DNA of 64,000 bases from IMG/VR virus record IMGVR_UViG_3300015374_000001, positions 30,197 through 94,196 of that record. The stretch is one strand, 5' to 3'. This document shows, piece by piece, positions 36,600-63,722 of this stretch. The translations under genes were made by a program, and so were the position numbers. This DNA is from a virus. Within the stretch, counting starts at the first letter, position 1. Each line of letters opens with the position of its first letter. The notes beneath the pieces are model-generated. The model saw only the letters and a list, made by a program, of their open reading frames with translations, was not told the origin of the DNA and searched no databases.

Positions 36600-37124
36600 A
36601 TGTCGCCGATCAAAAGCTTTCTCAATCAAGGGCCAGCCGCAACTGTTTTAATTGTGCTGCTTGTTCTTGCAGCCGGTGTGGTTTCGCTGGTTGACCCGGA
36701 TGAGATTGACTTCAAGCAGTGGTGGACTATTTCTACCGCTGTCGGCGCTGCCCTCGCGGTCGGTCGTGGTTTTGCCGCGAAGGGTGATGTTTCTACTAGC
36801 ACCAATGGGTTTGAGGATCTTTTCAATAAAGTTCCTTGGGCTACGGTCATCGTTTATACCCAAGCGATCTTCGGATTTGTTGTGGTCGTTACGACTGACT
36901 CGCTTACGTATGACGAGTATTTCATGCTGATCCTTCCTGCGGGTGCAGTCACGGCGCTTGGCCGTGGCATCGGTACCTACAAGATTGATCGTGATCCTGT
37001 CCTGCGTGGCAACAATGACCCGAATTTCCAAAATGCTATTGCTGCCGAACAGGGTGCAATCGCTGCTGGGCTCGGGGATGAGCCACCAGAAGGCGCTGTT
37101 GAAGGTAAGCCCGGTCTACAGTAA
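36600..37124 (+). CDS. Membrane protein, possible holin
   Basis: 174 residues from ATG 36600 behind AGGAGGTGA (GTG 36594 is also possible). Hydrophobic segments at about 12-30, 45-58, 80-98 and 105-122. Lies between the M15 peptidase and the endolysin, the classical place for a holin. No family match seen. Confidence 0.55.
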   Translation: MSPIKSFLNQGPAATVLIVLLVLAAGVVSLVDPDEIDFKQWWTISTAVGAALAVGRGFAAKGDVSTSTNGFEDLFNKVPWATVIVYTQAIFGFVVVVTTDSLTYDEYFMLILPAGAVTALGRGIGTYKIDRDPVLRGNNDPNFQNAIAAEQGAIAAGLGDEPPEGAVEGKPGLQ

Positions 37125-46120: not shown

Positions 46121-49100
46121 ATGCTCGCTGCTCAGACCATCCGTAGGCGCAAAACCAGGCCGGGGGTTATTGGCCCTGGTGGTCTTGCTATGCCTCGTGG
46201 GCCAACTGGCTCGCGCCACGGATTAGATGCACTTGGATCTGATGGCGGTATCCCCGCCATGGTCACGCCTACGTATGGATCGACGGCAGCGACTAGTTTT
46301 ACTCCCTGCGCAGAAGCAGCAGATTTCCTAGATTCTTTAGGAATTAATGTCCATCCTACGTACACGGGTCTGTCTTCAGAAACACAGCAGCAGACCGCGA
46401 TTGACAGAATCAAAGAGCTTGGATTCCGTCACGTTAGAGGATTAGGTTTATTTAATCCATCTTGGAAGGCTGATGAATTTGAGCACCAGTGGTCGCAATT
46501 TTGGTTGATCAATTGCATCAATGCCACTAAGACAAGACAGAAATTTACTGGTGGCCCTGCCGGTGTAGGCGAACAACCAATCTTCAATCTCATCGGGTTG
46601 GACGAGCGTGAGTATTTCACTAATGCAAATGCTTGGGCTGCACCTCAAGCAGCGTATGAAATATTCGATGCTGATGGTGGTGAGCCCTTCTACCGCGCAC
46701 TCGATGGCCCGCCTGCTCGGGTAGCATCCTCGGGAACCAACTACACTGGAAACTTCTATTCAATAAATAAAGGGGTTGTACCGACCGATCCTCCGATTGG
46801 TTGGAGCGGGGTTAGTTCTCTATCTGGTCCAAATGAACCAGAAGGAAGAAATACTCGTTTAGGGGCAGGGGCGCTTAGCTCGGGCGATGTTTTCTATGGC
46901 GATACGCTTGAGAGTCTTACGCCTTCTACAGATAGAAAAACTGGTGGTCGAGGGATTCGTTGGCTGCATCGCCAGCATCAATTAAAGCGTCAGTCTCAAG
47001 CTGACACGGTTATATTAAATGGCGAAGAGTACATAGACTTCAACACAGGCCGCATCAATCGTGAGCCCGCTACGATGCGCCAGCTTCCAATTCAGCCATT
47101 TGGTCATTTTGTTGGTGGCGGTCCTCCAAACAGCGGTTGGCAAAAAGGTGGCGACTACACCGATGCCGATTATGTTTCGTTCCATACCTATTGGTCGGGT
47201 ACCTGCCCGATGTGGGATTTCAATTGGGGCAATCCTACTGATCAGCAATGGCCCAACCCAAGTGCATCGGCCAGCTTTGGTTGGATGCACAATGCCGATG
47301 TGATCAATGGAATAAATCGTGGTGATACGATTAGATTTAAATTCCATTCGACACCGATATGGCAGACCGAAGCAGGTTGGTATCAATATCCATCTGCACC
47401 CGCGATCAGTGCAGGCCAGTATTGCCCACCGCATATCTCAGGCGAATACCTGATTCAGAATGTGGTGATGAATTACTTGCAGGGTTGCAAGCGCACCTTC
47501 GTCTATAAATTAACTGACGAAGGTGGTGACAATGCAGCCGGTAGCGGCCCGCCTGCCATGGGGCTCTGTCGCACAGACTTCACGAAAAAAGAATCCTTCC
47601 ATGCGATGAAGAACCTCGCGGGTATCGTGCGCTGGCGACAGGGAGGCCAGGACGGCGATCCTCCGCAATTCATACAGATCCCTCACAACTTCACGCCTGG
47701 TCAGGCCGAATTCGCTGATGACTTAACCAATGGAAATCAGACGCCTGACATTTGCTACAAGCTGGTGCTGCGTACAGGCACCAACCAGTATTTAATTATT
47801 ATATGTCGGCCACGGCAGCTTTGGTCGCGCCAGAAGTGGCAGCAGAGCAAGCAAGCCGGTAATACTGATGCGGTTGCAGAAGCAGCGGGCGCTCGTGTTC
47901 CTAATAAAACCGGCGATGTAACTAATGTAACGCTGACTCTACCTGCACCGCCCACGGGATATCACTGGGAAACCGGCGTATGCGAGCCAGCCAAGAATCC
48001 GATCCGCGATCCTAGCGATGGCCAGTTTTATGCAAATGCTAACAATGGCCAAGCATTCGCACCGCCAGGCGTAACCAATAACGGATTTACTCAAAGCAAC
48101 AATATCCTGACGCTGCGTGTATGCGGACTGACGCGCGCTGTTTCTGCTCAGCTTGTTCCTGATGCGCCGACCGGCGTTACTTCTGGCATAACGGCGACTA
48201 CGGATCGCACCAAGACTTCACAAGCCGCTCAATCAATTGGCGCGGACTTGGTGAGAATCAATTATGACATTGCCACGGTGCCGACTACGATGGATGCAGA
48301 TTTCCTTGCATACACGCCGCTCGGTGTTCGTGTTTTGCCGGTGGCCACATTCACCGGTCGTACTCCGACCACGACTGAAGCTCAGAACCTTGCCAATTGG
48401 GTAAATAGATTCGGGCCAGGTGGATCATTTTGGGCTGCGCATCCTGAGCTTCAGGCATCGTTCGCAATTAAACATATTGAGTTTGGTGATGACACCTCTT
48501 ACAACTACCAATATGGAGATGTTGAAGCTACCCCAGGTGCGGGTGACTGGTGGAACTCCACCACCTATCAGACGAGGGCAGCTAATTACGCTACCCGCTT
48601 CCGTGAAGCTCACATTGCCGTTCAAGCTACCGGCCGTGCAGTCGGATTACTTTGCATAGGTGAGGATGGCGGTTCCGCTGATCCTATGTGGGTTAATAAA
48701 TTATTTGATACGGTCACCGATATAGCTAGTCGTGTTGCTGGTTGGTCTACCAAGGGATTTAGCCCACAGTGGGAAGGCAAGATCGACCGCCTCGTTACTT
48801 TTACCGGCAACCGTGGAGCGGCGGCGACTATTCCAATTGATATTACGTCACTCGGGCAAGCCACAGACAACGGCAACGTGCTCAATGACAATATTTCTTG
48901 GCCACCGGATCAGACCTACGCTCAAGCAGCTTCGGCAATTGATGGGACAATTAGCACAGCGCTGGCTAAGCCTAACCTAGCCTCGCGTCTTCGTTACTTC
49001 ATAATTCGTCAAGCTCATGACCTGACAGCACCGGGCGCGAACAATGTACGCGATAACTACTTCGGCGTATTAACTAACACTCTTGGGGAGAAGGCCGAAT

Positions 49101-51205
49101 ACTCAGCTAGAATTCGTGAGCAATTCGGTGGAACTCCCCCACCACCTCCGCCGCCCCCGCCGCCAACGACTTTGCCAATTGTGGTGCCGTCGTCTGGCTC
49201 GACTGCTGCGGCGCTACGTACTGGCTCGACTACCGGGCCACGCTTGCACCTCAGGGGAGTAAATGTTTGGGGAACGCAAGACTCGATCACCACGAGCTTC
49301 GGTGCTGCTCAGTATCAGAACCGGACCAACATTTGTGCAACTATTAAATCGTGGGGCGCAAACTGTGTTCGCTTCAGGTTTCTTGCTTCCGATTGGAATA
49401 AAGCACCGATACCTGCTACTGGCCAATTAACTAAAGCGCAGATCATCGCTCAGATCAAGGACTGGCGCGATGCAGTAACAGCGCGGGGTATGTATTTCAT
49501 CCCGTGCTCGTGGGATGCACTCGATGGTGATTTTGATGATGTGGATTGGCCAGGCAATGCCTTCCGCTATCACCAGATGTTCACGGATATCAAGAATGCC
49601 CTCGGAAATGATCCGATGGTTATGTACGAGCCGACCAACGAGCCTAACCTAGTCGGTTATCTCGGTGGCAACGGCCATGATGCAAATGCATGGAATGCCT
49701 GGGACACGAATATGCGGTCCACCATCCTGCATTTCCGTGAGACATTAAATTACAAGGGCGTTCTGATCATCGATCCGCTGTGGTGGGCCAACTCTGGTGG
49801 CGGCGGTGAAGGTTACGATGATGCTCGCTACACAGCGCTTGAGAATTATGATGCTGCTCGCGCTGGTATGAATGGCATTCATCAATTAGTATTTGCCAAA
49901 CACGACTATGCGAACGGTGCAACCAGTTTCAATCAGGCAGCTTGGATCGCTGGTGCCGGGGCAAACCAGATCAAGCATCTCATTTGGGAAAATGAATTCG
50001 GCAACTACAACGGCTCGCCTTCAACTGTCAATGCAACTTGGTCTGATCAAGCAGCCACCTTCTTTGGTGCGCGATTTAATACACAGCAGAACTTCTGCGG
50101 CGGTTGCGCGTTCTTGTGGGGACCGTGGTTCGATGCTAATGCACTCACGGCATCAAATAACGTCACGCCTACAAATCCATGGGGCGAGACTGTTAGAACA
50201 AAATTCTTTGGCGGCGCAGTTACTCCACCGTCTACAGGATTCAGGCCGGGTGTAGTCGGCAATGCAGCCGATGGAAACGATATACCGGCAGGCCAGAGCC
50301 TTAATGCTAAAGTAATTAGGCTTGAGTGGGGCATCGGTACTGCTGCTACATCAATAGATGGTTCAATAATTGCTGCTGCTCAGCGCGGGCTCAGAGTCCT
50401 GATGTTGGCTGGGTTCTCTGGATTTATTCCATCGGTTGCTCAAGCTCAGAACCTAGCTACGTGGGCTAGTCGCTTTGGTGCCGGTGGAGCTTTCTGGCAG
50501 GCGCATCCTGAATTAAATGCGAACCTCGCTGTCACTGATATCGAATTCGGTAATGAGACTTCATTTAGTTATCAGTATGGCAACCAAGCTCCTGATCCTG
50601 CCTATCGTCAGCGTGCCTCTGATTATGCCTCGCGTTGGAAGAGCGCTTACGATGCGATCCAGGCCACGGGTCGGCCGGTGAGATTACTTTGCCAGGCTGA
50701 TCATGGCGGCAGTGGCTTGCCTGATTGGGTTAATTTTATGTTCAATGCTGTTCCTAACCTCGGCCAATTAAGTCAAGGTTGGGTTGTTCATCCGTATGGA
50801 CCTAACTGGAAAAGCAAGACCGATCTTTTGGTTAGTCAAACAGCGGCTCGTGGAGCGCCGAACAATATCCCTATTGACATTACTGAATGGGGTATTGCAA
50901 GCGACAACGGTGGCAAGGTCTACCAGGGCGGGCGGGAAGATAACTATGGCTACGGAACCGCGCTCACCTACCAGCAGTGTGCTGATTTAATTTTGCCTGC
51001 TGTGAATGCGATGCGTAATGATCCCAACATAGGATTCAGGATCAGGCATTGGCTCTGGTATCGAGCACACGATACGCAGCCACCAGGGCGAAGCAATAAC
51101 CCCGGCGTGGATAGCCGAGAGATATACTTCGGAGCATTGAAGAGCGATAATACGGAAAAGGGCAATATCGGTGCTCGCATCCGTGATGTAATGGCAATGA
51201 CCTAA
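46121..51205 (+). CDS. 1694-residue multi-domain glycosidase
   Basis: A modular virion-type enzyme, four domains. Domain A (about 55-560) is a clan GH-A, GH39-like barrel with acid/base E239 (SGPNEPEG) and nucleophile E417 (WQTEAGW). Domain B1 (about 685-1000) is similar in design to B2 but has IEFGDDTSY (D791) and IDITSLGQ (S910) where B2 has IEFGNETSF (E1479) and IDITEWG (E1589), so B1 appears inactive. A poly-Pro linker (about 1006-1016) leads to domain C (about 1040-1360), a GH5-like cellulase with E1174 (YEPTNEPN) and E1292 (WENEFG). B2 (about 1374-1694) completes it. Probable function is cutting or binding a host surface glycan. Confidence 0.75.
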   Translation: MLAAQTIRRRKTRPGVIGPGGLAMPRGPTGSRHGLDALGSDGGIPAMVTPTYGSTAATSFTPCAEAADFLDSLGINVHPTYTGLSSETQQQTAIDRIKELGFRHVRGLGLFNPSWKADEFEHQWSQFWLINCINATKTRQKFTGGPAGVGEQPIFNLIGLDEREYFTNANAWAAPQAAYEIFDADGGEPFYRALDGPPARVASSGTNYTGNFYSINKGVVPTDPPIGWSGVSSLSGPNEPEGRNTRLGAGALSSGDVFYGDTLESLTPSTDRKTGGRGIRWLHRQHQLKRQSQADTVILNGEEYIDFNTGRINREPATMRQLPIQPFGHFVGGGPPNSGWQKGGDYTDADYVSFHTYWSGTCPMWDFNWGNPTDQQWPNPSASASFGWMHNADVINGINRGDTIRFKFHSTPIWQTEAGWYQYPSAPAISAGQYCPPHISGEYLIQNVVMNYLQGCKRTFVYKLTDEGGDNAAGSGPPAMGLCRTDFTKKESFHAMKNLAGIVRWRQGGQDGDPPQFIQIPHNFTPGQAEFADDLTNGNQTPDICYKLVLRTGTNQYLIIICRPRQLWSRQKWQQSKQAGNTDAVAEAAGARVPNKTGDVTNVTLTLPAPPTGYHWETGVCEPAKNPIRDPSDGQFYANANNGQAFAPPGVTNNGFTQSNNILTLRVCGLTRAVSAQLVPDAPTGVTSGITATTDRTKTSQAAQSIGADLVRINYDIATVPTTMDADFLAYTPLGVRVLPVATFTGRTPTTTEAQNLANWVNRFGPGGSFWAAHPELQASFAIKHIEFGDDTSYNYQYGDVEATPGAGDWWNSTTYQTRAANYATRFREAHIAVQATGRAVGLLCIGEDGGSADPMWVNKLFDTVTDIASRVAGWSTKGFSPQWEGKIDRLVTFTGNRGAAATIPIDITSLGQATDNGNVLNDNISWPPDQTYAQAASAIDGTISTALAKPNLASRLRYFIIRQAHDLTAPGANNVRDNYFGVLTNTLGEKAEYSARIREQFGGTPPPPPPPPPPTTLPIVVPSSGSTAAALRTGSTTGPRLHLRGVNVWGTQDSITTSFGAAQYQNRTNICATIKSWGANCVRFRFLASDWNKAPIPATGQLTKAQIIAQIKDWRDAVTARGMYFIPCSWDALDGDFDDVDWPGNAFRYHQMFTDIKNALGNDPMVMYEPTNEPNLVGYLGGNGHDANAWNAWDTNMRSTILHFRETLNYKGVLIIDPLWWANSGGGGEGYDDARYTALENYDAARAGMNGIHQLVFAKHDYANGATSFNQAAWIAGAGANQIKHLIWENEFGNYNGSPSTVNATWSDQAATFFGARFNTQQNFCGGCAFLWGPWFDANALTASNNVTPTNPWGETVRTKFFGGAVTPPSTGFRPGVVGNAADGNDIPAGQSLNAKVIRLEWGIGTAATSIDGSIIAAAQRGLRVLMLAGFSGFIPSVAQAQNLATWASRFGAGGAFWQAHPELNANLAVTDIEFGNETSFSYQYGNQAPDPAYRQRASDYASRWKSAYDAIQATGRPVRLLCQADHGGSGLPDWVNFMFNAVPNLGQLSQGWVVHPYGPNWKSKTDLLVSQTAARGAPNNIPIDITEWGIASDNGGKVYQGGREDNYGYGTALTYQQCADLILPAVNAMRNDPNIGFRIRHWLWYRAHDTQPPGRSNNPGVDSREIYFGALKSDNTEKGNIGARIRDVMAMT

Positions 51206-54627: not shown

Positions 54628-54809
54628 TGATTCCTATCAATGCGGAAGTCACACTTGCATTAATTACGCAGCTTTACGGTGAAGCCCTTGGTGCATCTAA
54701 GCGTGTCGAAGAGCTTGAGCGTGAGATTAAAGAACTCAAGGCGCAATTAAATGGTCATAAGGATGAGCATCAGCCAGCACCCATGCCAGGGGTGACGCCA
54801 GTTAAATGA
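54627..54809 (+). CDS. Short coiled-coil protein, cassette copy 2
   Basis: 60 residues from ATG 54627 (TAATG overlap; the 54576 frame start is inside the fibre gene). A heptad-rich helix (GASKRVEELEREIKELKAQL) precedes a Pro-rich tail. Same place and design as the 42272 gene. Confidence 0.6.
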   Translation: MIPINAEVTLALITQLYGEALGASKRVEELEREIKELKAQLNGHKDEHQPAPMPGVTPVK

Positions 54810-55285
54810 GCACCCGTGATCGCGCACAATTTCTTGGACCAACTGCGCTTGAGAAATTACCTGATGCATTTATAAAAATACAAAGGCGTAAATTCAAGCT
54901 CACTCTCTACAAACGCGCAGGTAGAGAATTTGATATACAGCCATGGGTATGCCGGATAGCGGTAGGCGCTATTAAATTTGACACACCGGCTAAGCCCTAT
55001 CTCGTGCTCGGCAAGGAATCCCCGCCGACCTACACAGCGCCGAATTCGCAATGGGCTCTCGACGCAGGATTCAAGCCTGGTGAGAAGTTGCCACACGATC
55101 ACCCCGCAAATCCATTAAGGGGAGCTTTCCTCTGGCTAGATGACCACGGGATAGGCATCCATGGAACTCCAAATTTGCTGAGCCTCGGCACACGAGCTAG
55201 CCACGGCTGCATCAGAGTCAGCGAAGAGGATGCAATCTATCTTTACAACAACGTCCCGCTAGGCACCAACGTTTTAGTTATTTAA
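54806..55285 (+). CDS. L,D-transpeptidase (YkuD)
   Basis: 159 residues. The catalytic motif IHGTPNLLSLGTRASHGCIRV has H119, H133 and the nucleophile C135, the classic YkuD signature HXXX...SHGC. Such enzymes join or modify peptidoglycan peptides with L,D bonds. No signal peptide is seen, so it may ride on the virion or act inside. Unusual for a phage. Confidence 0.8.
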   Translation: MSTRDRAQFLGPTALEKLPDAFIKIQRRKFKLTLYKRAGREFDIQPWVCRIAVGAIKFDTPAKPYLVLGKESPPTYTAPNSQWALDAGFKPGEKLPHDHPANPLRGAFLWLDDHGIGIHGTPNLLSLGTRASHGCIRVSEEDAIYLYNNVPLGTNVLVI

Positions 55286-57810: not shown

Positions 57811-57833
57811 ACTAGTCCACAGAAAGAGAAAGA

Positions 57834-57862
57834 CCCCCGCCTCGGAGAACGGGGGCCTTTCC
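57834..57862. terminator. Two-way intrinsic terminator
   Basis: CCCCCG (57834-57839) pairs with CGGGGG (57850-57855). On the plus strand CCTTTCC follows. On the minus strand TCTTTCTCTTTCT follows, the better U-tract. It lies where the rightward and leftward operons meet. Confidence 0.7.
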
Positions 57863-57917: not shown

Positions 57918-58490
57918 CTAGCGCACAGCGCGGCGACCTGTCAAGTAGTACAGGCCGAAGCCTATGCTAGCGAGTACCAAACCGGCAATTAGTAAAATAC
58001 CGGTAGGCGCTCCGGTGAAGGGAAGCGTACCCTGCTGCTCACCCGCAACCGGCGCGACTGGCTGGCCAACATCATGCGTCGGCCCATTGACTCCACCGCC
58101 ACCTTGCTCCTTACCAGCGACTTCGCTAGGAATATTAGGAGTTTCCTCGGGCGGAGTATCTTCAACCACAGGAATTTCTGGTGCCTGATAATCAGGTGCG
58201 GAGGGAGGGGTTTCAACCGGAGGTGTTACCGGTGGCGTCACGGGAGGGGTGACCGGAGGGGTTTCCTCACATTCGGTCGGCAGTCCTTCAGACTCCGACT
58301 TGGGCACTTCAACTAATTGCCCATTAATGCAGACCGTAACTTTTTCTTCAACCGGCGGAACACAATCAGGATGATCGTAGCCGTGTTGATTTTTATAGTC
58401 CACGCACTGCGGCGATCCTGGTACCCATGCCGAAGCGGTAGGAACAGCAATAAATAAACCCATCGCCGCTAGTCCAGCAGCGAGTAACAT
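57918..58490 (-). CDS. Sortase-anchored surface protein (LPFTG)
   Basis: 190 residues from ATG 58490 (the frame is open to 58586; a good site AAGGAGGG lies well upstream near 58510, so the exact start is unsure). A signal peptide (MLLAAGLAAMGLFIAVPTASA) precedes a Cys-bearing domain, then a Thr/Pro-rich wall-spanning region (TPPVTPPVTPPVETPP). The C-terminus has LPFTG, a hydrophobic stretch and a GRRAVR tail: a sortase cell-wall anchor. A phage protein displayed on the cell wall of its host, perhaps in lysogeny or to block superinfection. Confidence 0.75.
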   Translation of the reverse strand: MLLAAGLAAMGLFIAVPTASAWVPGSPQCVDYKNQHGYDHPDCVPPVEEKVTVCINGQLVEVPKSESEGLPTECEETPPVTPPVTPPVTPPVETPPSAPDYQAPEIPVVEDTPPEETPNIPSEVAGKEQGGGGVNGPTHDVGQPVAPVAGEQQGTLPFTGAPTGILLIAGLVLASIGFGLYYLTGRRAVR

Positions 58491-58582
58491 CTTCTTGATA
58501 ACGCATCCCTCCTTCAAAGGGATCGGGTCTAGTAAGACTAGTACAGGTCGCGCGAGAGCGCAAGACTGTACCGGATCTTGCA

Positions 58583-58996
58583 TCACTTAGGCCATTCAAT
58601 CAGTGGCAGATGCTTTGCAAGGGCTGAGCTAAGGCCGTCTACACTATATTCTAAATTACGTTTGAAGCTTTGGAAAAACATATGCTCTTCGCCGCCAGAC
58701 AGTACGTTTTCAAGGTCGCGCTCAGCCTGGTTTTGCAGTGCCGCTAGATGCAAATGAACTAATTCATGAACAATACAATGGCGAGTCATCGGTAGATCAT
58801 GCTCACGGATATCTTCGCATACGTAAAGATGAGCTACCTTGCGACCGTAGACAGGAAAGATCGCAGCAAAAGAATCTTCGCTCTTAGGCGGATCATGCTC
58901 TAGCTCGATAGTCCAGTCACGAAGCTCAACGACATCAGCTATCCACCTAATGTATTTGCCTAATTCTTTCCGGTCCTTCTTGGTCATCTTTCTCAA
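58583..58996 (-). CDS. HExxH zinc metallopeptidase
   Basis: 137 residues from TTG 58996. CIVHELVHLHLAAL has the zinc motif H77 E78 xx H81 with a third ligand unassigned. WTIELEHDPP and HLYVCEDIREHDLP fit SprT-like or small metallopeptidase folds. No signal peptide, so it is cytoplasmic. Next to the surface-protein gene. Confidence 0.65.
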   Translation of the reverse strand: MRKMTKKDRKELGKYIRWIADVVELRDWTIELEHDPPKSEDSFAAIFPVYGRKVAHLYVCEDIREHDLPMTRHCIVHELVHLHLAALQNQAERDLENVLSGGEEHMFFQSFKRNLEYSVDGLSSALAKHLPLIEWPK

Positions 58997-61378: not shown

Positions 61379-61690
61379 CTACTTGCCGACGACGCGCAAC
61401 TTCGGCTTTGGTTCCTCGCCCTTCTCGGATGGCGAGTCTGTATGAAAGTCCCAAGTTCCTAATTTGATTAACTCCACGCCGAGAGCTTGAGCCAGCACGA
61501 TTGCTTGCCGGAAGGACAGACCACGCTCAGCAGTTTCGATGCGGCTGATGTGGGACGAGTCCATGTTGGCTTTGACAGCTAGATCAGCTTGGGATAGCTC
61601 TCTGTTGGTACGCAGGGCTTTGATGTTTTTGCCTACAAATAAGTTAAACTGAAGATCAGCTTTTTCATATGCGGGGTTCCTGGGTGGCAA
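61379..61690 (-). CDS. XRE-family transcriptional regulator
   Basis: 103 residues. A Cro/CI-type HTH: NIKALRTNRELSQADLAVKANMDSSHISRIETAERGLSFRQAIVLAQALGVEL (read in pieces, motif residues 20-70). Probably a repressor of a phage operon. No cI-type C-terminal protease domain. Confidence 0.8.
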   Translation of the reverse strand: MPPRNPAYEKADLQFNLFVGKNIKALRTNRELSQADLAVKANMDSSHISRIETAERGLSFRQAIVLAQALGVELIKLGTWDFHTDSPSEKGEEPKPKLRVVGK

Positions 61691-62549: not shown

Positions 62550-62553
62550 TCAA

Positions 62554-62627
62554 TAGGGCGGACGGGGCTCGAACCCGCAATCTGCGGCTTGAAAGGCCAC
62601 CGAGATAACCAATTACTCCACCGCCCC
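62554..62627 (-). tRNA. tRNA-Glu (UUC)
   Basis: A full cloverleaf on the minus strand: acceptor GGGGCGG/CCGCCCT, anticodon stem GTGGC/GCCGC with loop CTTTCAA (anticodon TTC), and T arm GCGGG-TTCGAGC-CCCGT. CCA is not encoded. It decodes GAA/GAG, the dominant codons of the hyper-acidic protein and other Glu-rich proteins here. Confidence 0.9.
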
Positions 62628-62633
62628 AAGCAC

Positions 62634-62846: not shown

Positions 62847-63128
62847 TTATTTCTCCTTCGTGTGTTTGATTCCCAATTCAGTGGGCCGGGAAGGGCTCGA
62901 ACCTTCGGCCGACAGATTATGAGTCTGCTGCTCTACCACTGAGCTACCGGCCCCATGTTCGGCCACCTTTAATTCAAGTCTTTTCCAAGCTTTGTCTAGA
63001 GCTAGGTGTGGATCGTGATCCTCTGCCTCTGCGGTTAATCCTGTCGGCCAATGCGTAAGCGTGTACTTGGTCGGGCCAGCCGGGATAATCTTTCGATAGC
63101 AGACCGAATCCACTTCACCAATTTCCAT
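62847..63128 (-). CDS. Hypothetical protein whose frame contains tRNA-Met
   Basis: 93 residues. The first 57 look ordinary (RKIIPAGPTKYTLTHWPTGLTAE, a beta-rich start with a helix). The remainder (GAGSSVVEQQTHNLSAEGSS) is translated tRNA sequence. The frame ends just before the next ATG. Either the gene truly reads through the tRNA or its true product is shorter and its stop was lost. Confidence 0.45.
   Translation of the reverse strand: MEIGEVDSVCYRKIIPAGPTKYTLTHWPTGLTAEAEDHDPHLALDKAWKRLELKVAEHGAGSSVVEQQTHNLSAEGSSPSRPTELGIKHTKEK
62882..62953 (-). tRNA. tRNA with CAU anticodon (Met or Ile2)
   Basis: Minus strand. Acceptor GGGCCGG/CCGGCCC, D arm GCTC/GAGC, anticodon stem GCAGA/TCTGT with loop CTCATAA (CAT), T arm GAAGG-TTCGAGC-CCTTC. 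No CCA is encoded. Elongator Met or Ile2 cannot be told apart from sequence alone. Confidence 0.9.
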
Positions 63129-63651: not shown

Positions 63652-63722
63652 TGGGCCTTGCCAGAGTCGAACTGGCATCCCTTGATTAAAAGTCAAGTCG
63701 TTTACCATTAACTTAAAGGCCC
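63652..63722 (-). tRNA. tRNA-Lys (UUU)
   Basis: Minus strand. Acceptor GGGCCTT/AAGGCCC, anticodon stem CTTGA/TCAAG with loop CTTTTAA (TTT), T arm GCCAG-TTCGACT-CTGGC, and a short D arm. No CCA is encoded. It decodes AAA/AAG, common in the Lys-rich proteins here. Confidence 0.85.

Follow-up and report, generated by a model that had tools for sequence, protein, structure and literature searches.

The minus-strand gene and the phage that carries it

A gene of 193 codons, predicted to encode an exported protein, occupies positions 57918..58499 of the minus strand (stop codon included, ATC taken as the start) in a window of 64,000 nucleotides, which covers bases 30197-94196 of a virus record 94,196 bases long (also labelled G000). 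It is the last minus-strand gene ahead of a strong intrinsic-terminator-like hairpin at 57827..57862 (-) (z -2.84 over a 106-nt stretch), which lies 3' of the gene and on whose far side the plus-strand late genes end. Among the late genes are one whose product, 1694 aa long, has a GH5 cellulase-like domain (46121-51205, +) and one for a protein with a free-standing L,D-transpeptidase (YkuD) domain (54806-55285, +). Immediately upstream of the gene, at 58583..58996 (-), is a reading frame for a 137-aa protein that matches no family in Pfam or PHROGs and whose HELVH motif, found by eye, we take to be zincin-like; its TGA overlaps a GTG at 58586. Further along, tRNA genes for Glu, Met and Lys (62553-62628, 62881-62953 and 63652-63722, all minus strand) lie amid small minus-strand genes.

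The contig is that of a real tailed phage, and the gene is phage-coded: the same contig carries genes for the terminase large subunit, a portal protein and DNA polymerase III alpha, and the window also encodes helicases, a primase and a RecA-like protein. A second contig, IMGVR_UViG_3300015373_000003, matches the record with 99.9-100% identity over a stretch that begins at about record base 668 and ends at window base 36765, and the gene therefore lies outside its reach. Samples 3300015371 to 3300015374 are presumably Arabidopsis rhizosphere assemblies. Minus-strand genes are found at two places, the right end of the window (57.9-64 kb) and the left end of the record (about 0.5-6.5 kb), and the two groups may be a single block of a circularly permuted genome; an overlap between the record ends was sought and not found.

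The likely start of the gene is unusual. A sequence-only reading had placed the frame at 57918-58490, beginning at an ATG; the minus-strand frame is real, but the position of the Shine-Dalgarno sequence makes an ATC at 58499 the likelier start. The sequence AAGGAGG at 58508..58514 (-) ends 8 nt before this in-frame ATC, and its predicted duplex (-13.3 kcal/mol) ends 5 nt ahead of it. The ATG at 58490 lies 14 nt beyond the predicted duplex end and would leave the signal peptide without a basic head, whereas reading from the ATC restores a Lys-Lys head. The remaining in-frame starts, GTG 58586 (-3.4), ATG 58583 (-3.4) and TTG 58517 (-0.3), have no Shine-Dalgarno sequence. Among the 2604 ATC codons in the window, five have a Shine-Dalgarno sequence at least as strong as -12 kcal/mol placed 3-8 nt ahead of them; because only that at 58499 leads a frame of more than 64 codons (193 open codons, versus 1 to 64 for the other four), translation from it is likely, though not proved, and would make the gene one with a rare AUC start. 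The GTG at 58586, which overlaps the upstream stop, could serve as an alternative start by coupling and would give the protein a longer head.

Protein layout and the candidate sorting signal

Read from the ATC at 58499, the protein begins with a predicted Sec signal peptide (residues 1-24, 58428..58499, minus strand; I/M-KKMLLAAG...PTASA), in which KKM is followed by a hydrophobic run and by ASA before W25, the probable cleavage position. Residues 25-80 (58260..58427, -) make up a small region with cysteines at 32, 46, 57 and 77, for which the structure model predicts, with block mean pLDDT of 68-78 over residues 31-80, a short helix together with a hairpin of two strands (KVTVC-ING-QLVEVP). 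This region is followed by a Pro-rich, low-complexity stalk (residues 81-158, 58026..58259, -), recognised by composition and of low pLDDT, and then by the motif LPFTG (residues 159-163, 58011..58025, -), assigned from the sequence and from profile scans of the tail. The last residues, 164-193 (57921..58010, -), comprise a hydrophobic helix plus a basic tail ending in YYLTGRRAVR, and the structure model places a C-terminal helix at residues 165-192 ahead of the RRAVR end; the model as a whole is poor, having a mean pLDDT of 58 and being built on two sequences. All of the parts, from signal peptide to basic tail, are thus present on the minus strand, although the earlier reading's description of the stalk as a Pro/Thr stretch was too narrow, in that Pro and Thr (together 25% after the first 30 residues) are joined by abundant Val and Glu.

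This export and anchor layout exceeds chance. Among 19,565 stop-to-stop frames of at least 60 aa, taken from 167 overlapping and partly duplicate sequences totalling 2,574,985 bases, six passed a filter that combined a Shine-Dalgarno sequence, a signal peptide and a C-terminal helix with a basic tail. LPxTG occurs solely in the window gene among the five of these that were listed, and the sixth, by the criteria used for listing, has neither the motif nor a non-hydrophobic middle.

Profile searches place the sorting signal at the border of recognition. The full-length protein matched nothing in Pfam (E<=1) or PHROGs (E<=0.1), and in NCBIfam it matched, at E 0.018, the tail part of a model for LPXTG pilins, a second and unrelated match having E 0.23. 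When the last 50 residues were scanned alone, the tail scored 15.8 bits against TIGR01167 (curated cut-off 15.9) and 16.7 bits against PF00746 (Gram_pos_anchor; curated cut-off 20), the sole Pfam match, and all five of its NCBIfam matches at E<=10 were to families whose names refer to sorting or surface anchoring (TIGR01167, the pilin model, Firmicu-CTERM and two more sortase-substrate families). As controls, 10 tails were chosen by hand from the 18 other C-terminal hydrophobic tails in a list of 20 that included those of the window and of locus L131. None of the 10 matched an LPXTG family, and some matched unrelated families at E 0.016, at 0.025, and up to 0.1 and weaker. Since control tails reach E-values as low, those of the window tail prove little by themselves, and the evidence for a sorting signal is the coherence of the matched families. 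Searches of whole records with PF00746 and TIGR01167 returned no records, and as two of these runs also missed the gene itself, the zeros carry little weight. To call the anchoring textbook was too strong, with full-length Pfam and PHROGs searches empty and the tail under both cut-offs, but the parts of a sortase substrate are there.

Relatives, host and lifestyle

No homologue of the 193-residue protein was found in isolate phages, in plasmids, or, by close-relative search, in viral contigs or GTDB genomes; a two-sequence profile of the C-terminus likewise matched no viral contig, and the one PDB match (E 0.22) was at chance level. These empty searches agree with the earlier remark that phages seldom encode such proteins, but GBS A prophages are reported to carry an LPXTG protein (PMC6546898).

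Related viruses were gathered by their major capsid protein (MCP), beginning with 29 virus loci and reaching 74 in all with a 20-sequence MCP alignment. Of 40 related virus records, G034 alone gave a match to the protein (E 2.3e-4), the total being made up of none of 27 in a run without a positive control and one of 13 further records in a run whose positive control, G000, scored E 6.5e-129. The G034 gene (L131:524-1117) has a normal start and encodes a signal peptide, a VTICH..C region, a Pro stalk, the motif LPYTC, a helix and a basic tail. BLASTP of the two proteins as a single comparison gave E 1e-6, and a local tblastn of 166 loci recovered L131 at E 0.32 when low-complexity sequence was filtered out and gave no match when the filter was off. 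The score of the real comparison was reached by none of 2000 shuffles for the C-terminus and none of 2000 for the stalk, whereas the signal peptides (791/2000) and the N-terminal domains (1919/2000) resemble each other at chance level. The shared layout may reflect descent or convergence. The LPYTC tail matched no anchor family in NCBIfam or Pfam, and LPYTC is not a site at which cleavage by an ordinary sortase would be expected.

Core replication and packaging genes of the window phage are common to G010 and G017, and fewer to G026, while the 11 related records compared gave no match to any minus-strand gene between 57918 and 63623. The LPFTG gene is thus an accessory one. Its single match among 40 records, with the same layout but LPYTC in place of LPFTG, marks it as fast-changing.

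The head region was also compared with those of other exported proteins. A VTVC/VTICH domain common to the window protein was rejected on the shuffle result with G034; between G034 and G029 the resemblance is clear (0/2000 shuffles), and between the window and G029 it is marginal (4/2000). A short domain of the form V[AT]ICH..AV.AHL.HGDT.GPC, which matched no Pfam family, is common to the exported proteins of L116:18858-19766 and L131:863-1039 (0/2000 shuffles). The G034 domain had one weak match among plasmids (E 0.03) and none in phages. A loose export filter (Shine-Dalgarno sequence, signal peptide, P+T of at least 20%), which chance frames pass too, returned eight rows, the window included, in 8 of 25 records; exported candidates were collagen-like in G028, G029 and G030, and Pro-rich in G010. 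Two related phages encode exported collagen-like proteins with signal peptides at L129:3599-4168 and L128:4141-4941. These sequences hint that carrying exported stalk-like proteins may be a habit of the phage group.

Attempts to assign a host failed. A profile of the MCP matched genomes of Paenibacillus and Brevibacillus only, at 27-29% identity over partial length; matches to the L,D-transpeptidase were distant and fell on plasmids, mostly from Gram-negative genera, and in two Acinetobacter phage records; WhiB was found in none of 26 phage records; and GC across the phage group ranges from 0.40 to 0.67. At the end of the related record G032 (L134:1-450) is the C-terminal fragment of what we take to be a glmS-like gene, either phage-carried or host flank. 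The mention of lysogens in the earlier reading finds no support, as neither Phage_integrase (PF00589) nor Resolvase (PF00239) has a match in the 94 kb record; carriage by a temperate, integrating phage is not indicated, other routes of integration being possible, and an HTH repressor-like gene is present at 61379-61690. The lack of an integrase family in the record favours a role during infection over lysogenic conversion.

Predicted surface display and its possible role

The reading we favour, and hold to be probable, is that of a phage-coded surface protein, wall- or membrane-anchored, that is displayed during infection, plausibly for superinfection exclusion. It accounts for a complete layout in one Shine-Dalgarno-led frame with a terminator behind it. 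The Sec machinery of the infected cell would export the protein and its signal peptide would be removed; the LPFTG-helix-RR signal would keep it membrane-bound; and, if the host has a sortase, this enzyme would cut at LPFTG and join the protein to the wall, with the Pro-rich stalk taking the small Cys-rich head across the wall to the outside. There the displayed head might alter the surface seen by other phages, through receptor masking and superinfection exclusion. The gene, its Shine-Dalgarno sequence, the layout, the phage context and the same-layout protein of G034 are observed, and export, cleavage, anchoring and the presence of a sortase in the host are deduced. Display at the surface is very likely and attachment by sortase is probable. 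Given display, a role in superinfection exclusion is a guess, possible rather than probable. The importance of surface proteins for phage adsorption follows from reports of wall-anchored LPXTG proteins that can serve phages as receptors, GamR being the example (PMC3208642, PMC9863714).

Several other readings bear on this picture. The exported protein may be held by its C-terminal helix in the membrane and not in the wall, with sortase cleavage incidental or absent; the family feature would then be signal, stalk and C-terminal helix, and LPxT(G) would be decaying or optional. The G034 protein, which retains helix and basic tail beside LPYTC, is consistent with this, as is the failure to find a sortase (PF04203) in any of 26 phage records, and uncleaved sorting-signal precursors can remain membrane-held yet exposed (PMC3208642). 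However, LPFTG is intact in the window protein and its tail scores as LPXTG-like, and the G034 Cys, known from a single contig, could be a base error or a recent change, and we regard anchoring in the membrane alone as unlikely.

An improbable reading is that of a host-fitness or adhesion gene acting by lysogenic conversion, the role put forward for GBS A prophages, where the same product class is reported and adhesion is suggested (PMC6546898); against it stands the missing integrase or resolvase, in a record that has a repressor-like gene and may be incomplete. That the frame is an untranslated chance frame, or yields a different product from another start, is very improbable: no ATG, GTG or TTG is led by a Shine-Dalgarno sequence and the sole such sequence points to an ATC, but 193 codons with AAGGAGG, a full export and anchor layout and a terminator speak against chance, as do the singular length of the frame led by 58499 and the same-layout gene with a normal start in G034. 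A wider extension of the favoured reading, in which a clade of uncultured, seemingly non-integrating soil phages redecorates the host surface during infection with a fast-changing family of exported stalk proteins, LPFTG sortase-anchored or LPYTC membrane-held, the AUC start perhaps limiting dose, we consider unlikely.

If the protein is made and displayed, phages beyond the well-studied prophages of pathogens would borrow the host sorting pathway, and the gene would offer a simple system for how an infecting phage shuts the door behind itself in Gram-positive-type hosts. The LPYTC protein of G034 also raises the question of whether wall attachment is needed at all.

In its signal peptide, Pro-rich stretch, LPxTG, hydrophobic helix and basic tail the window protein resembles the LPXTG wall proteins described by TIGR01167 and PF00746; it differs in being phage-coded, in a tail just under both cut-offs and in having no known head domain. 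Phage-coded LPXTG proteins as such are already reported, in that GBS prophage A carries an LPXTG-motif protein suggested to be an adhesin (PMC6546898), while the open-licence literature, in the portions of text accessible, brought to light no LPXTG protein described from a soil phage. The likeness to prophage A is one of description: that phage is integrated in a known pathogen, whereas the window belongs to an uncultured phage in which no integrase was found. PMC9863714 mentions prophage proteins with a receptor-blocking action; for phage superinfection-exclusion proteins receptor block is the described outcome, and for the window protein the same outcome is proposed. GamR, the receptor of Bacillus gamma phage (PMC3208642, PMC9863714), is likewise a wall-anchored LPXTG protein tied to phage adsorption; GamR is a host gene product and a receptor, whereas the window protein is the product of a phage gene.
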